Part shown: piece after piece, positions 6,358 through 25,180 of the stretch | Position numbering within the stretch: position 1 is the stretch's first letter | How the letters are laid out: every line of letters begins with the position of its first letter | From: Saccharomycopsis phalli | Taxonomy: Eukaryota > Ascomycota > Saccharomycetes > Ascoideales > Saccharomycopsidaceae | NCBI GenBank assembly: GCA_020342235.1 | Contig: CP073218.1 | Location: 1-64,000 of the forward strand | Direction: 5' to 3' | DNA length: 64,000 bases | Translations under genes and position numbers: made by a program | Notes under the pieces: model-generated | What the model was told of the DNA's origin: nothing | Databases searched by the model: none | What the model saw: the letters and a program-made list of their open reading frames with translations, nothing else

Positions 6358-6451
6358 TGGTCCCTACCAGGATCGAACTGGTGATCTTGGCGTAACTCGA
6401 TCATACAATCTCTTATTAGCACCACGCCTTAACCAACTGGGCCAAGGGACC
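6358..6451 (-). tRNA. tRNA-Ile (anticodon AAT) with 20-nt intron
   Basis: The minus strand folds as a complete cloverleaf. The acceptor stem GGTCCCT pairs with AGGGACC, the discriminator is A, the D-arm is GGCCCAGTTGGTTAAGGC, and the T-arm is ACCAG-TTCGATC-CTGGT. The anticodon loop reads CTAATAA with anticodon AAT, interrupted after position 37 by a 20-nt intron, the canonical site for nuclear tRNA introns. Mature length is 74 nt without CCA. The internal promoter boxes look intact. It reads wobble-family isoleucine codons. Confidence 0.95.
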
Positions 6452-9199: not shown

Positions 9200-9547
9200 T
9201 GACGTACATTGGTGAAATGTACTTATCCTATCAGAGTTCTTGGTCTCGTAACCATGATTGATGATGTGGTTGCAACCAGATGGAGCAGTATTACCCTACC
9301 TATAATGCCTTATAAGAGGGATTTACTGCCTCCAAAATATTTAGTTCAGAATTTTATATACACAATGTATATTACGGTATCGATTGGAACAATGTATAAT
9401 TGAAACAATGTATAATTGTTATAGTAGCTACTGATAGTTCTGTGCTCCAAACCTACAATATAATTTATTTAATATTGTGGGCCGTATTTACGTATTAAGT
9501 TTTTCCTTATGATTGATTACAGTCTAAGGTTTTTTGTTAATACATCA
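9200..9547 (+). mobile_element. LTR-1 solo LTR (copy A)
   Basis: A 348-bp unit TGACGTACATTGG ... TTTTTTGTTAATACATCA, nearly identical to copies at 20,863-21,196, 21,557-21,870 and (minus) 20,080-20,394. No clean 5-bp duplication is visible: the left flank is LTR-3 sequence and the right flank is an LTR-2 end fragment (about 9,558-9,595), which suggests recombination after insertion. Confidence 0.8.
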
Positions 9548-15010: not shown

Positions 15011-15020
15011 GCCAATTATA

Positions 15021-15340
15021 TTATTATTGTCTACTTGTGGTCTATAGCTGTACTAGGCTCCTAAGTGATTGATATTTCACTGCTGAAACTATTAACAGCG
15101 CCGCTATGTTGAGTGTTGAAAGAAAGCTCTTCTTATGGGCAGGAAAACTTCCAACTTGGCCTTGAGAGTGGCTATTGATGATTTGGCTCGGGACGCCTGT
15201 GGGGTCTCCCTCCATTACAGAAGTACCTGCCTCGCCGGCCGACCATGAGGTGGGCAGCTGATGGGTTTGAAGCTCGGGCATTCTCTGCTCCCACTGTGGC
15301 CGAACGCACTCCAATTTGGCCATGCCCCTGCCCCCCGACG
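15021..15340 (-). mobile_element. SINE-like retroelement with LINE-type 3' end and 10-bp target duplication
   Basis: A 320-bp insertion bounded by perfect direct repeats GCCAATTATA (15,011-15,020 and 15,341-15,350). Read on the minus strand, its last about 200 bp match the LINE 3' UTR (shared TAGCGGCGC, GTGAAATATCAATC, GGAGCCTAGTA, AGCTATAGA) and it ends in an ATAATAA tail. The first about 110 bp are GC-rich, do not match the LINE, and contain TGGCCAAATTGG (11 of 12 to the tRNA A-box consensus) and, 37 bp on, GCTTCAAACCC (B-box-like). This fits a tRNA-type SINE mobilised by the LINE. The alternative is a truncated LINE of a divergent subfamily. Confidence 0.6.
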
Positions 15341-15350
15341 GCCAATTATA

Positions 15351-17211
15351 CCATTCCAATTATTTTGTCGTCAAACAAATATCAAAATTCATAGCATAGC
15401 TATACACTGCATAGACGTAAGTGAACCACCAAAATCTGTCTTTCGAATGCATGCTAAGGGAACTACTGAATCAATAACGTGAAACTCTGCTAGATACAGA
15501 CGAGTTTTAAGTGAATTTTCCTACTACATTTGTATGGCTGGAGATTCTATCTAGTAATTTGGTGGGCGTAGATTATAATATGACATGAAATATCTATGAA
15601 CAAGACCAATTTTTTTTTCTCAGTTGATAATGTTTAAACCAGAATTTTATAGCAGACTAGCATTCTTGGATTACTAAAGCGATAGGAAATAGTCTGATCA
15701 TCAAGACACGTATTGGAACTAACTGTCATAATTTGTAGATCATCTCAATTACAACCTCCATTTCCCATCCATGTAGGTAATTCAACTCTGATTATTCATC
15801 CAACTATTTTCTATCCTGTGTATAGTTGGTGCAGATTTTCCTGTATCGTTAATTCAGCTATATTTTATTTATTGGAGTAGCTTCTTGATAGCTTGTTATG
15901 CTTGGAGTTCTTACTAATTATAATACTTTAATGATTTATATTCCCGTTTGAAGACAAAAGCATAAAGAACAATCGTTAAACTAGTACAAAACGATTGTAT
16001 TTTCTGCAATAGTCAAAGCACGCATACTTCCCCACATCACATGTGTTTCATCATCGGTATCAACGTATCCGAAATCATTCCACGTTGTGAATACTAAACT
16101 TGAAATCGGATAAAATAATCCGTCTGGTCCGATTAATCATCTTTGATGTCCTTCTGATGCATTTTGGCAAGGCGCGATTCATGCTAGTGAATGTACCTTC
16201 TATATTGGGCTAACCCAAGAATTATTGATTAAAAATTAGATAATTCGCCATTATATTTATTAGCTCTAAATACTTAAAGCAAATTATTATATTCACCAAT
16301 ATACTGATACTATTAGTAAATGATATACGTATTGACCAACGTAGATATTTCAGGAGGATGCAAACGTATTCGTCTGCGTGCTCAGATCTTGCATGTATAG
16401 ACGATTTGTCATTCTTCACACCACCTAAACCTGTATAGGCTTTATTTTATATTATTTTAATTTTTATTACCAAAAACGCCAATGCTCTCCTTTGATGAAT
16501 CATTGACATTGTATTGTCGAAACATGTTTTACTAATTGCAAGTTGCTAACTCATGTCATTATTCTACTTCATACTTGCGCATTGCTTCATATAATTTATG
16601 ATTATATAGCTTGTAATTAAACTTCTGATTATAGTTACATGTGGCATAAAGGAACATTCAAGGAGTTGCGTTCATGTAGAAGATCTTTCTGTCTACATTG
16701 GGAAATTTCCAGCCGTTGAGGATAGCGCAAAGAAAATTTCTGGTAGCACAAAAAAAAGAAGAAAAAAAATTTCAAGCCATTGAGTTTAATAAATAGTGAA
16801 GAAAAAATACATTTGTTAGAGATAATAAACTGCGAAGTGAAAAACAGTAATTCACTTGTTGAGAATCGTAACTAAACGGCGATCTTGATCCATGACCTGA
16901 CTGGATAAACAGGCCATTGCAAGGTCAGAATCTGCACGTTTTTTACCTCACTCATTCTACAAAGCCAAGAAATACGCCAACGGCCAAGCCAATAATTAAG
17001 CCAATAACAAGGACAATGACTAAGTCAATTATCAGATAAATAGAATCGGTTTCATGGCAATGATAATGCAAAATAACGACATGCATTAAATAATAGTATG
17101 GCCCTGAAAATAAATTTAGAGCCAGTTCCGGCGTAACGAGACTATGTCAATAATTAGGCATACTAGAGCGTCAATACGCATTTGCTAGACCAATACATAT
17201 CTGTCAGATGG
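15351..17211. other. long intergenic region upstream of the DUF1996 gene
   Basis: AT-rich, no supported gene or repeat end. A short minus frame at 16,222-16,419 has no domain. The part from about 16,600 probably includes the promoter of the downstream gene. Confidence 0.5.
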
Positions 17212-18598: not shown

Positions 18599-18926
18599 TG
18601 TCGATGCTGATTTCATTGTCTAGAGAGTGTGATATTGTTACAAACTTATGCTCAGATATTTAGTTAATTATAGATGTGTTTTGTTGCTTTGTAATTGAAT
18701 AATCGGAACAGTAGTGATGATTAAATTGAAAATTTACTTGTTCTACTGAACTATGGAAGTATCTCCCCTTTACAGGATACGTACTCCCTTATAAGAGCCT
18801 GTTGTTATAAGTTGCACATTACGTTACAACTGTACATTGTGCCTGTTATGCCGTTCCATGAGCACATTTCAACGTAGAATTGCTTCTCCGTCATAGGTGT
18901 CTTACTGGTGGTTTTCAACCTCAATA
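18599..18926 (+). mobile_element. LTR-3 solo LTR
   Basis: About 328 bp, TGTCGATGCTGATTTC through CAACCTCAATA, homologous to 2,212-2,531 and 10,002-10,328 over the full length. The last bases read TA rather than CA and no 5-bp duplication is visible, so it is an older copy. Confidence 0.75.
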
Positions 18927-19969: not shown

Positions 19970-20079
19970 TTGTGGTCAATCGCAAGGAAAGACTTATACT
20001 TACACATGGCTTACAATGTTGAATAATATTATAAGCTCAGAGTCGAGAAGTCTCGGTGAGTAGCAGAGTTATAATACAG

Positions 20080-20394
20080 TGATGTACTAACAAAAAAACC
20101 TTAGACTGTGATCAGTCATAAGGAAAAACTTAATACGTAAATACGGCTCACAATATTAAATAAATTATATTGTAGGTTCGGAGCACAGAACTATCAGTAG
20201 CTACTATAACAATTATACATTGTTCCAATAGATATAAAATTCTGAACTAAATAACTTGGAGGCAGTAAATCCCTTTTATAAGGTATTATAGGTAGGGTAA
20301 TACTGCTCCATCCGGTTGTAACCACACCATCAATAATCGTGGTTACGAGACCAATAACTCTGATAGGATAAGTACATTTCACTAATGTACGTCA
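20080..20394 (-). mobile_element. LTR-1 solo LTR (copy B) inside old LTR-1
   Basis: 315 bp, TGATGTACTAAC ... AATGTACGTCA, with flanks TACAG and TACAA (one mismatch). It is a close relative of copies A, C and D and lies in an older member of its own family. Confidence 0.85.
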
Positions 20395-20642
20395 TACAAT
20401 GTCCTAGTTACAACCGTAATATACATTTTGCAGATAAAAATCCAAACTAATTATTTGGGGGGCTGTAAATCTCTCTGATATATCACTCTAGGCAGGGTAA
20501 CGACTGCTCCTTCCTAGTGTAACCACACCAAACAATTATGATTACGATACCAAGAACTCTCATGGAATAAGTACATACCACCATTGTATGTCAATTCGTA
20601 GCTATTTCTATTCCAATTCTGCTAATCTTCAAGAAGAAAAAA

Positions 20643-20846: not shown

Positions 20847-21551
20847 TGACGTACTTAGTGTTTGACGTACATTAGTGAAATGTACTTATCCTATCAGAGT
20901 TCTTGGTCTCGTAACCACGATTATTGATGATGTGGTTGCAACCGGATGAAGCAGTATTACCCTACCTATAATGCCTTATAAGAGGGATTTACTGCGCCAA
21001 AATATTTAGTTCAGGATTTTATATACAGAATGTATATTACGGTATCGATTGGAACAATGTATAATTGTTGTAGTAGCTACTGATAGTTCTGTGCTCCGAA
21101 CCTACAATATTATTTATTTAATATTGTGGGCCGTATTTACGTATTAAGTTTTTCCTTATGATTGATTACAGTCTAAGGTTTTTTGTTAGTACATCAGTGT
21201 TGTCTCTTCTCTGATGGGGACCTGATGTACCTAGTGTAGTCTCTTCTCTGATGGGGACTCTGCACGGGTAGTAATAAATAAATAATAATCAATAGTAGTG
21301 AGCTCAGTAAGATACGAGGTATTATTGATAGTGCCGAGCTATCTTACAAACGTATTTTGTATTTATATTGAACTAAAGATCTTCAGGTCTAAACTAATAT
21401 CTTTTATACCTGCATCTCTCACATATACGTGTTCCCTGTGAGGTGGCGGAGTCATATTGCGTATCATCATAGATCGGCGCCTATGCTTCCCATGTTGCTT
21501 ATTCCGCTTATCACGTGACCATCTTCTTGTATCATACTTCGTATGACGTCA
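20847..21551 (-). mobile_element. LTR-2 with partial duplication, split by an LTR-1
   Basis: The left terminus TGACGTACTTAGTGTT lies at 20,847-20,862. LTR-1 copy C follows. Then GTGTTGTCTCTTCTCTGAT resumes at 21,197, and from 21,223 a second, full LTR-2 body runs to ATGACGTCA at 21,551. The outer flanks GAAAC and GTAAC are a 4 of 5 match, so the whole may be one integrated unit. It carries about 37 bp of its terminus twice. Confidence 0.7.
20863..21196 (+). mobile_element. LTR-1 solo LTR (copy C) with 5-bp target duplication
   Basis: 334 bp, TGACGTACATTAG ... GTTAGTACATCA, flanked by GTGTT at 20,858-20,862 and 21,197-21,201. The host is the LTR-2 at 20,847-21,551, whose sequence is continuous across the insertion. 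Confidence 0.93.
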
Positions 21552-21556
21552 GTAAC

Positions 21557-21870
21557 TGACGTACATTGGTGAAATGTACTTATCCTATCAGAGTTCTTGG
21601 TCTCGTAACCACGATTATTGATGGTGTGGTTACAACCGGATGGAGCAGTATTACCCTACCTATAATACCTTATAAAAGGGATTTACTGCCTCCAAGTTAT
21701 TTAGTTCAGAATTTTATATCTATTGGAACAATGTATAATTGTTGTAGTAGCTACTGATAGTTCTGTGCTCCGAACCTACAATATTATTTATTTAATTTTG
21801 TGGGCCGTATTTACGTATTAAGTTTTTCCTTATGATTGATTACAGTCTAAGGTTTTTTGTTAGTACATCA
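21557..21870 (+). mobile_element. LTR-1 solo LTR (copy D)
   Basis: 314 bp, near-identical to copy B in reverse, including the same 20-odd-bp internal deletion relative to copies A and C. It starts five bases after the LTR-2 end. Flanks GTAAC and CAAAC do not form a clear duplication. Confidence 0.82.
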
Positions 21871-22180
21871 CAAACTCCTTGAGTTCTACCAGAACGTGTT
21901 GGAATATGATTCCTCCAACACATGATGAGATTCAGTGGTCACATTCGACAACAAGAGTGACCAGGCTTCTTACACAGTTCATACAAGCACCAAGCACCAA
22001 CAACATAACTGCCTCCATTGAAGTTTTTAATCCCAGGCAACCGTATGAGGGTTGACTAAGGGTTTTCTTCAACAGCAATGCTGCCTCAGGATGTTCCTGA
22101 GTGAAAATATATCTGTCGAATAACCGTATTGCCGGAGACAATATATAGCTAAATACAAAAATAAATATTATTATTATTAT
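21871..22180 (+). repeat. short dispersed repeat with ATT tail (second copy near 44.4 kb)
   Basis: The last part (CCTGAGTGAAAATATATCTG through CCGGAGACAATATATAGC and AAATAAATATT followed by ATT repeats) matches 44,390-44,600, which has CCTGAAAGTATACTT, CCGGAGGTAATATATTG and AAGTAAATATAAATT. The upstream part (CCAACACATGATGAGATTCAG) also lines up weakly. The AT-rich 3' tail suggests a LINE- or SINE-type retroelement; which one, and its 5' end, are unclear. Confidence 0.5.
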
Positions 22181-22398: not shown

Positions 22399-22604
22399 TG
22401 ATGTACTAACAAAAAACCTCAGACTGTGATCAATCATAAGGAAAAACTTAATACGTAAATACGGCCCACAATATTAAATAAATTATATTGTAGGTTTGGA
22501 GCACAGAACTATCAGTAGCTACTATAACAATTATACATTGTTCCAATCGATACCGTAATATACATTGTGTATATAAAATTCTGAACTAAATATTTTGGAG
22601 GCAG

Positions 22605-25010
22605 GCCCCAGGGCCGGACAGAGTAACGGTGGGGCAGATCAGAGTGATGTACTAACAAAAAACCTTAGACTGTAATCAATCATAAGGAAAAACTTAATAC
22701 GTAAATACGGCCCACAATATTAAATAAATAATATTGTAGGTTCGGAGCAACACTAAGTACGTCACAGAGAACTATGGAAAGGATCCAATTTCCTGGACCA
22801 ACTTGAAGCCATCTACAATGCATGCCTCTCCTTAGGCACATGCCCGAACCAGTGGAAGGAAAGTATCACAGTAGTGATCCCCAAACCGGGTAAACCTGAT
22901 TACAACAAAGCCAAGGCTTATCGACCGATAAGTCTCTTGAATATCATGGGGAAAATCTTTGAATCAATCATGACGCAGCGTTTGGCAGCTACGATTAGAC
23001 TACCGAATCAACAGTACGGAGGCCGGGCAGGATACTGTGCGACTGATGCTGTTATGAAACTCATCAACGATGCTGATATGCACAGAAATAGGCAAAAGAA
23101 GCGTGAACTACGACAGTACCAGAAGGGCGTCAGCACCCCTCCATCACAGCACAAGCACATGGGTGCAGTGCTAGTCGATATCAAAGGAGCTTTCAACAAC
23201 ATGAACCACCCCATCCTCTTATCGAAGATGAAAGAAGTTGGGGCCCCGGGCGAGATAATCAATTGGACCAGCAGCTTCCTAACCAATAGGAAAACAAAAC
23301 TCCGGATCAACAACAAGCTCTCAGAGAAGTGGATACCAGTGACCTTTGGAGTGCCTCAGGGCTCGCCGATCTCTCCTATCCTTTTCATGATCTATACCCA
23401 CGACCTCTATAAGCGACTACGAGACCATAGGGTCAAAGTAATTGGCTTTATCGATGACATAACCATATACAAGACAAGCGGACAGCGGAAAATCCAGAGG
23501 GCGCTCTCACAGAGTCTCAGCATATGCCACCAGTGGGCCCAAGAAAACTACACAGGCTTTGACTACGGGGAAAAACTACAATACATCAGATTCTTTGCAA
23601 AATCACGCGGCTCAATTCTCCACCTTCCAGACGGAACAATAAAGGAAGAGTCCACAGAGGTGAAGCTACTAGGGATATCCTTAGACTCAAAACTTAGTTT
23701 CAGACAACACATTGGGACCATGACACTTCGTTTGAAGAGAACCACTGGACGGATACAGGCCATTAGTCGCATCACCAATGGAACCCGAGGGAAGACCACG
23801 CTAATCTTGTTTAAGACATGCGCGCTACCCCTCATCACATATGGACTAGAGATTTTCTACCATAAGCTAACCAAGACCCAGATCGAAGCCATCAGATTAT
23901 GTTACAACATTTCATTGCGTAATGCACTTGGCATGTTGAAACCGACCCTGACCGGAATCCTCAATATCGAAGCAGGGATGCTTCCGATCCAACTTCTTTT
24001 AAAACGAGCCGCGATAGAAAAGTGTGTGAGATGGTTCACTAACACTAACATAAAAAACCCTCTACAAGATAGCATCAATAAGCAAATAGTACTCGGGGTC
24101 ACAAACCGGGACGCCTACTCATACCCTCTCATACGAGAATCCTTTGAAAGTCTTGGCATAAGTGCGCCCTACCAAAGATCATTTAAAGAAGCTGCATCAA
24201 ATATAGACCATCATGCAGAAGTGTTAGTCCAAACCCATTCGGAACTGTCAGATAGTCAGAGTTCAGCCCTGCAGGGACGAAAGAAATGGGCCCTTAAAGA
24301 CCAAATAAACACAAAGATGACCAAGGAATGGCAAAAACTAGTGGACACTGGCGAGATTACTCTCCCAGCCCACTATAGAACTCTACGCGGAACGGATTCA
24401 CCAGTGGTTACCACCGCTAAAGATAAACGCCTACTAGCCGAGGCCTTAGCCGGCCCAAAGAATATTTTGAGCCTGATAAGACAACTCCTAAGTGGAAAAA
24501 GCTTGGTATCATGTAACATCAAGAAACAATTCAATCCTGAGTGTGATCCGAAGTGCCCTAGGTGCGACAATCCCTCCCCAACAATATTCCATGACCTATC
24601 ATGCCCATGTTTAGAGGTATTCAGAACTCAGGAAACAATCGGCGAAGGCCTCACAACCAGAGCGCAGATTCGCCGCCTCTTTACAGACGCAAAATCAGTT
24701 CATTCTCTTATAGGTTTCTACACGTTAGTGCTGGACGGGTAGATTCCTTTTCTTTTTGCAGTACACAAGAAGGGCGGCCGGGCAGGTAGTCCCTCCGGGG
24801 GGCGAGACTCCATAGCCCTTTCTGAGTCATTTCTCTTAAACAGTTTCTTAAAGATCAAGTCGAAAGTTTTTATCCCCATTCGAAGGGTTTTCTCTCGACT
24901 CCAACATTAGCGGCGCCGTCCTTAGTTTTTTAGACGGTGAAATATCAATCTCACCCTTCTGGGGAGCCTAGTATAGCTATAGAAGTAAATAAACATTATT
25001 ATTATTATTA
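22605..25010 (+). mobile_element. LINE, 5'-truncated, with long open RT frame and ATT tail
   Basis: Begins inside the RT-coding region (APGPDRVTVGQIR) and is interrupted at once by a 120-bp LTR-like insert. It then stays open from 22,770 to the TAG ending at 24,742, more than 650 codons. RT motifs in order: PKPGKPDYNKAKAYRPISLL, GGRAGYCATDAV, VLVDIKGAFNNM, VPQGSPISPILF and the catalytic GFIDDITI. The C-terminus carries CDPKCPRC and HDLSCPC, a CCHC-type finger typical of LINE ORF2 ends. A 3' UTR of about 250 bp ends in repeated ATT. No RNase H domain is seen. The 12-bp duplication (22,593-22,604 and 25,011-25,022) and clean frame mark a recent insertion. Tad1/I/jockey-like by RT wording. Confidence 0.93.
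22645..22764 (-). mobile_element. 120-bp chimeric mini-LTR with 5-bp target duplication
   Basis: TGATGTACTAAC ... CTAAGTACGTCA flanked by CAGAG at 22,640-22,644 and 22,765-22,769. The first about 105 bp equal the end of LTR-1 (through GGTTCGGAGC); the last 16 bp equal the terminus of LTR-2 (reverse of TGACGTACTTAGTGTT). The middle of both families is missing. It lies within the LINE reading frame, which continues on both sides. Confidence 0.88.
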
Positions 25011-25180
25011 TTTTGGAGGCAGTAAATCCCTCTTATAAGGCATTATAGGTAGGGTAATACTGCTCCATCTGGTTGCAACCACATCATCAATCATGGTTAC
25101 GAGACCAAGAACTCTGATAGGATAAGTACATTTCACCAATGTACGTCATATAAGTTGTAAGTTAATCTCCAAAACCTTGG

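Follow-up and report, generated by a model that had tools for sequence, protein, structure and literature searches.

The insertion at positions 15021-15340 of a 64-kb window (the whole stretch of DNA analysed here, from a budding yeast) raises the question whether it is a SINE that shares its 3' end with the LINE that mobilises it, or a LINE-related product of another kind. Pairs of SINEs and LINEs with common 3' ends are listed in animals, fungi and amoebae and are discussed for plants and algae in passages of PMC3747384, which name Mg-SINE/MGL and SINE2-1_BG/Tad1-24_BG among the fungal ones. No budding-yeast SINE was found among the matches listed in our search of the open-access literature. 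No term starting with 'SINE' occurs in the accessible text sections of PMC7175516 and PMC8546629, and the singular whole word 'SINE' does not occur in those of PMC5499181.

Results

Results of our analysis indicate that the element is a minus-strand retro-insertion (15340-15021), with 320 bp between its target site duplications (TSDs), a length which falls in the SINE size range of about 100-700 bp. The TSDs, GCCAATTATA on the plus strand, occupy positions 15341-15350 on the 5' side of the element and 15011-15020 on its 3' side, and the layout read along the minus strand is TATAATTGGC - 320 bp - TATAATTGGC. The two copies are identical at 10 of 10 positions, in agreement with the preliminary description of this locus, and the A/T end of the element, ACAATAATAA, is also as that description gave it. 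In a chance control, a repeat of at least 10 bases was found at 50 of 4000 random window anchors under loose rules (repeat end at most 5 bases from the anchor, partner 100-600 bases further on), so that a TSD like this one, considered in isolation, would be expected by chance in about 1% of cases. It is convincing because it coincides with a jump in GC content at the 5' boundary of the element (0.68 in 15301-15340 vs. 0.30 in 15341-15380), with the A/T-repeat end and with a tail of LINE type.

Three LINE copies serve as references in the window. LINE1 (22605-25008, plus strand) is 5'-truncated at a point within the reverse transcriptase (RT) region, and comprises RT, a C-terminal CCHC-like motif recognised by eye, a 3' UTR (24743-25008) and an ATT tail, the whole being flanked by its own 14-bp TSD (22591-22604/25009-25022). 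A 105-bp segment copied from a repeat end (22645-22749) interrupts it, and LINE1 is itself nested in a copy of this repeat, whose two parts lie at 22399-22604 and 25009-25151. LINE2 (about 14400-9795, minus strand) is what is left of an RT, with its frame broken, and shares 70% identity with LINE1 over 13002-11886. Repeats break up its 3' UTR, and a tRNA-Phe gene (9764-9692) follows in the same orientation about 30 bases downstream of the LINE2 3' end. Certain frames of LINE2 upstream of RT appeared endonuclease-like by eye, an assignment which Pfam did not confirm, its best result for 14407-14048 being an unrelated one with an E-value of 0.19. LINE3 is a fragment. An additional stretch, 21873-22180 (plus strand; the 22-kb fragment), resembles the 3' UTR of a divergent LINE. 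It carries an ATT tail and, close to where the hairpin of LINE1 lies, a perfect hairpin of CTCAGGA and TCCTGAG. In a tiled alignment to the LINE1 UTR it ranked 8th of 850, and we take it to be a divergent LINE 3' end; no pair of A and B boxes with up to 3 mismatches was found in it. Searches of the flanks identified no TSD of at least 9 bases for LINE2 and none of at least 8 bases for LINE3 or the 22-kb fragment.

Two other repeats occur in the same region. One, of about 330 bp, starts with TGACGTAC, ends with GTACATCA or a similar sequence, and is present at 9200-9547, 20072-20396, 20863-21196 and 21557-21870; it looks like a solo LTR, and its copy near 20863 is bordered by GTGTT on both sides. 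The second, of about 320 bp (2211-2531, 10328-10002 on the minus strand, and 18610-18924), is probably another solo LTR, and its copy inside the LINE2 3' UTR has TG...CA ends with CTATT on either side.

The tail of the element, of about 218 bp (15021-15238, minus strand), is of LINE 3' UTR origin. In a blastn search of the window the best non-self matches were those to LINE1 (E 6.9e-14; element 183-300 vs. LINE1 24856-24983, 73.6% over 129 columns including gaps) and LINE3 (E 4.1e-4; element 261-302 vs. LINE3 29296-29252), the rest having E-values of 0.017 or worse. The neighbouring part of the tail (element 103-183) aligns with LINE1 24743-24856 with a score that was equalled or exceeded by 3 of 3000 shuffles. 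Both results bear out the claim, made in the preliminary description, of a match of about 200 bp to the LINE1 3' UTR. When the complete tail is aligned with LINE1 24775-25008, 161 of the 208 columns without gaps are identical (77%), and 137 of 168 columns are identical to LINE3 in an alignment that is gappier than that of LINE1. The homology starts about 32 bases past the LINE1 stop codon and spans almost the entire 3' UTR, and the motif GARCCTAGTAYAGCTATAGA is common to the element, LINE1 and LINE3 in their alignment. The terminal repeat of the element has an AAT unit, as opposed to the ATT unit (ATTATTATT) of LINE1, LINE2 and the 22-kb fragment. This difference, together with the 77% identity, indicates that the LINEs of the window are relatives and not the exact donor of the tail; the 'local LINE' proposed previously as the partner of this element counts as a relative rather than as its demonstrated partner. 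Runs of at least five T, which are present in each of the four LINE-type 3' ends of the window, are absent from the element. Their absence was rejected as a proof of SINE nature, as they are also absent from 1704 of 2000 element shuffles and from 480 of 796 window stretches.

A 7-bp hairpin can be drawn in the tail (15078-15100, minus strand; stems 15100-15094 and 15084-15078), at the position of the LINE1 hairpin (24914-24939), with which it was aligned by MAFFT; with five sequences the case for it is statistically weak. All seven pairs are formed in both the element and LINE1, and, as read off the alignment, two of them are altered on both sides and one is altered to G-U. Among the five 3' ends, 80% of the cells are paired, a share that falls to 20 to 60% with the partner strand shifted. 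Covariation in the hairpin was rejected as a proof, since 56 to 255 of 500 column shuffles reach its five measures, with the poorly aligned row of the 22-kb fragment retained. The numbers of sequence shuffles, per 500, that fold at least as well as the hairpin were 32 for the element, 23 for LINE1, 27 for LINE2, 336 for LINE3 and 13 for the 22-kb fragment. The notion of a hairpin shared between the element and the LINE 3' ends is thus suggestive only. Stem-loops at the 3' ends of LINEs of the stringent type and of SINEs are reported in passages of PMC3747384.

The head, of about 102 bp (15239-15340, minus strand), differs in character from the tail. Its GC content is 64%, and when the first 105 bases of the element were aligned with LINE1, LINE2 and LINE3, scores at least as high were obtained for 258, 129 and 42 of 300 shuffles, respectively, i.e., no clear similarity was detected to any of the three. 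A GC-rich head lacking LINE similarity, as claimed before, is therefore what we observe with respect to these LINEs. The head contains an A-box-like sequence, TGGCCAAATTGG (element 19-30; 15311-15322, minus strand), with no mismatch to TRGYNNARNNGG, and a B-box-like sequence, GCTTCAAACCC (element 68-78; 15263-15273, minus strand), with one mismatch to GGTTCRANYCC, these being the sequences that we took as box consensuses in scoring. The distance between the box starts is 49 bases. In a scan of both strands of the window (2 x 64 kb), with 25-75 bases allowed between the box starts, this pair was the sole one with up to one mismatch. Only the pairs of tRNA-Asn (20709) and of a tRNA-Ile-like gene (6444) were added at two mismatches, and the remaining listed pairs have three. 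The pair of the element is the best on either strand and outranks those of two true tRNA genes, with the tRNA-Phe gene escaping the scan. When dinucleotide-shuffled, the first 110 bases gave an equal pair once in 5000 trials, and the whole element did so in 3 of 1500. The tRNA-Ile-like gene (6358-6451, minus strand) contains an intron; ARAGORN gives no type for it, and Rfam is silent at its gathering score. Judging by resemblance, we presume it to be tRNA-Ile(AAT).

Eighteen bases separate the 5' end of the element from the start of its A box. In promoters of this kind, pol III starts transcription about that far upstream of the A box, and so the insertion starts about where a pol III transcript would. 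By sequence match, the two boxes can be assigned as a candidate internal pol III promoter. Their position bears on two alternatives in which the head is a LINE part. According to the first, the element belongs to a 5'-truncated LINE subfamily with a diverged 3' UTR or ORF end, and its head is a LINE sequence that is unrepresented in the window. The coexistence of several LINE lineages with divergent UTRs speaks for this alternative. However, the head bears no clear resemblance to any of the three LINEs, its three sense frames, inspected by eye, show no ORF2 end even though just 32 bases separate the LINE1 stop codon from the point where the homology begins, and a random truncation 18 bases ahead of an A/B pair would be unexpected. 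We consider this alternative very improbable. According to the second, the element is an internally deleted LINE whose own 5' UTR, the head, became joined to its 3' UTR, and which is carried in trans by full-length LINEs; RIME, derived from ingi, is of this type. No recognisable LINE 5' end is present in the window with which the head could be compared: truncation has removed LINE1 sequence upstream of 22605, LINE2 can be followed upstream no further than about 14.4 kb, and LINE3 is a fragment. This would suit an internal deletion, but one would not expect a LINE 5' UTR to contain A and B boxes with the spacing seen in tRNA genes, and this origin of the head seems to us rather improbable.

The similarity of the head to tRNAs is restricted to the boxes. 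Of 1000 shuffles, 7 scored at least as high in alignment to the tRNA-Phe gene, 18 to the tRNA-Ile-like gene and 147 to the tRNA-Asn gene. When the scores to these three tRNAs of the window were summed, 8 of 2000 shuffles and 1 of 144 GC-rich stretches from the window did as well. With the boxes masked, the summed score was reached by 566 and the best score by 221 of 2000 shuffles, neither of which is significant. A search of Rfam with the element returned nothing at E-values up to 10, and ARAGORN, run on bases 1-130 with its threshold lowered in five settings and without a positive control, detected no tRNA. The folding of the head is not above chance (124 of 200 shuffles fold at least equally well). 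Hence, we assign the head as pol III-type and not as tRNA-derived; of the 'tRNA-type' head proposed in the preliminary description, it is the two boxes that are borne out.

An ATG-initiated ORF of 93 codons (15042-15323, minus strand; element 18 to 299) crosses the junction of head and tail. An ORF as long was found in 11 of 1000 shuffles, in which the first 170 bases and the remainder were shuffled separately, and when the window was sampled in 1592 stretches of 320 bases, 11 of them contained a complete ORF of at least 90 codons. The product has no Pfam match up to an E-value of 1, and the homologous LINE1 UTR contains stops in all three frames. The ORF is probably due to chance. SINEs are expected to be non-coding, and its presence counts against a clean non-coding SINE.

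No second copy was found when the element with its TSDs was compared to the 64-kb window by blastn, and within the head nothing better than an E-value of 9 was obtained in the window. A profile of the element, LINE1 and LINE3, which recovers its three members by construction, additionally detected the LINE2 UTR (9996-9944, E 0.0004). The same profile pointed to five places at chance level (5463, 27041, 22057, 51226 and 5584; E 2.2 to 30), of which 22057 is in the 22-kb stretch that we regard as a LINE 3' end. A pattern built from the LINE1 protein gave 8 matches in prokaryotic genome and 4 in viral contigs, with no confirmed relative among them. Further scans of viral and prokaryotic contigs were empty except for one match of 18 bases in the viral set, which does not extend and is taken as chance, and plasmid sequences gave no match. 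As the scanned collections are viral, prokaryotic and plasmid, these results are uninformative on the copy number of the element.

The long uninterrupted ORFs of the window encode a HIS4-type histidine enzyme of three domains, a chitin synthase, MFS and Zn-cluster proteins, and a Trm734 homologue whose alignment spans residues 14-1054 of 1058, a gene content in keeping with a budding yeast. CTG is rare, with 25 codons in seven ORFs. Alignment of portions of four proteins placed eight CTG codons opposite a residue (three Ser, two Leu, and one each of Thr, Pro and His) and one more opposite a gap. This is a hint, but not a proof, that CUG is read as Ser in the host.

Discussion

The best reading of what the window allows testing is that of a SINE-type composite mobilised by a LINE. 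In more specific terms, we infer that the element is a SINE with a pol III-type head and a LINE 3' UTR tail, a conclusion drawn from sequence features which we favour somewhat over its negation. The composite anatomy, the TSD, the homology of the tail and the boxes all stand from the SINE/LINE pair originally suggested for this locus, but its tRNA origin and the local LINE as the partner are not supported. Against a SINE speak the single copy in the window, the AAT unit of the tail vs. the ATT unit of the LINEs, the lack of a tRNA signal outside the boxes, the chance-level folding of the head, and the 93-codon ORF.

If it is a SINE, the element would be transcribed by pol III, starting at its own 5' terminus. 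A related LINE would then supply, in trans, the reverse transcriptase that recognises the tail with its hairpin, its GAGCCTAGTAYAGCTATAGA stretch and its short A/T trinucleotide repeat. Target-primed reverse transcription of the RNA at a nick in an A/T-rich target would generate the 10-bp duplications.

A composite of similar anatomy may also arise in a single event, when a LINE reverse transcriptase switches from LINE RNA to a cellular RNA (here the head) and the product is inserted once, with no family to follow. The MINE chimeras (WEIRD-MGL) of Magnaporthe are equal to our element in anatomy: as described in passages of PMC2104539, they consist of a non-LINE 5' part, which is a copy of a cellular RNA, and a 5'-truncated LINE, flanked by direct repeats of 10-20 bp. 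They differ in that their 5' part is 1.1 kb in length and in that A and B boxes are not mentioned in those passages. The single copy in the window is consistent with such an event, and the 93-codon ORF, which starts in the head, would suit a head derived from mRNA, although it has no Pfam match. On the other hand, had the head been copied recently from a described pol III RNA, a match in Rfam would be expected, and nothing appeared there at E-values up to 10. About 23% of the aligned bases differ from LINE1, and the parent LINE of a recent jump would thus be absent from the window. The location of the boxes so near the 5' end would be an added coincidence, unless the donor itself was a pol III RNA. 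Taken together, we regard a one-off chimera as unlikely.

The SINE-type composite favoured here has its closest parallels in other fungi. Mg-SINE, whose LINE is MGL of Magnaporthe, is likewise listed as a SINE of tRNA type with a 3' end resembling that of its LINE (PMC3747384 and PMC2104539, in part). Ca. 100 copies are given in a passage of PMC5063351 for a tRNA-derived SINE, probably Mg-SINE, in contrast to the pol III-type head and the one copy in the window of the element studied here; moreover, Magnaporthe belongs to a different group than our host, which is a budding yeast. In the case of AfuSINE2-1a and I-1_AF of Aspergillus fumigatus, positions 210-335 of the SINE resemble the LINE 3' UTR, and its end is also a short trinucleotide repeat, but the heads of AfuSINE2 are assigned to tRNAs (passages of PMC5063351), unlike the head of our element, in which tRNA similarity is confined to the boxes. 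LINEs of budding yeasts have been described as well, namely, Ylli of Yarrowia (PMC5014426) and Ace, Bri and Can of Scheffersomyces stipitis (PMC8546629). In contrast to the element described here, no SINE partner is mentioned for any of them in the accessible sections of these two papers.

Possibly, the element represents the first budding-yeast SINE family, perhaps of a CUG-Ser species, which together with a LINE of stringent 3'-end recognition would form a complete SINE/LINE pair; we hold this for a serious possibility that falls somewhat short of being probable. Were the element to be single-copy, it would be an ordinary retrocopy of little significance. If it is a member of a family, it would offer such a pair in a budding yeast with strong genetics, where the recognition of the tail by the reverse transcriptase would be directly testable. 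The Yarrowia genome paper contains, in a passage of PMC5014426, the speculation that LINEs may spread pol III and tRNA genes in yeasts, and a LINE-tailed pol III element would back such a LINE-driven spread of pol III genes.
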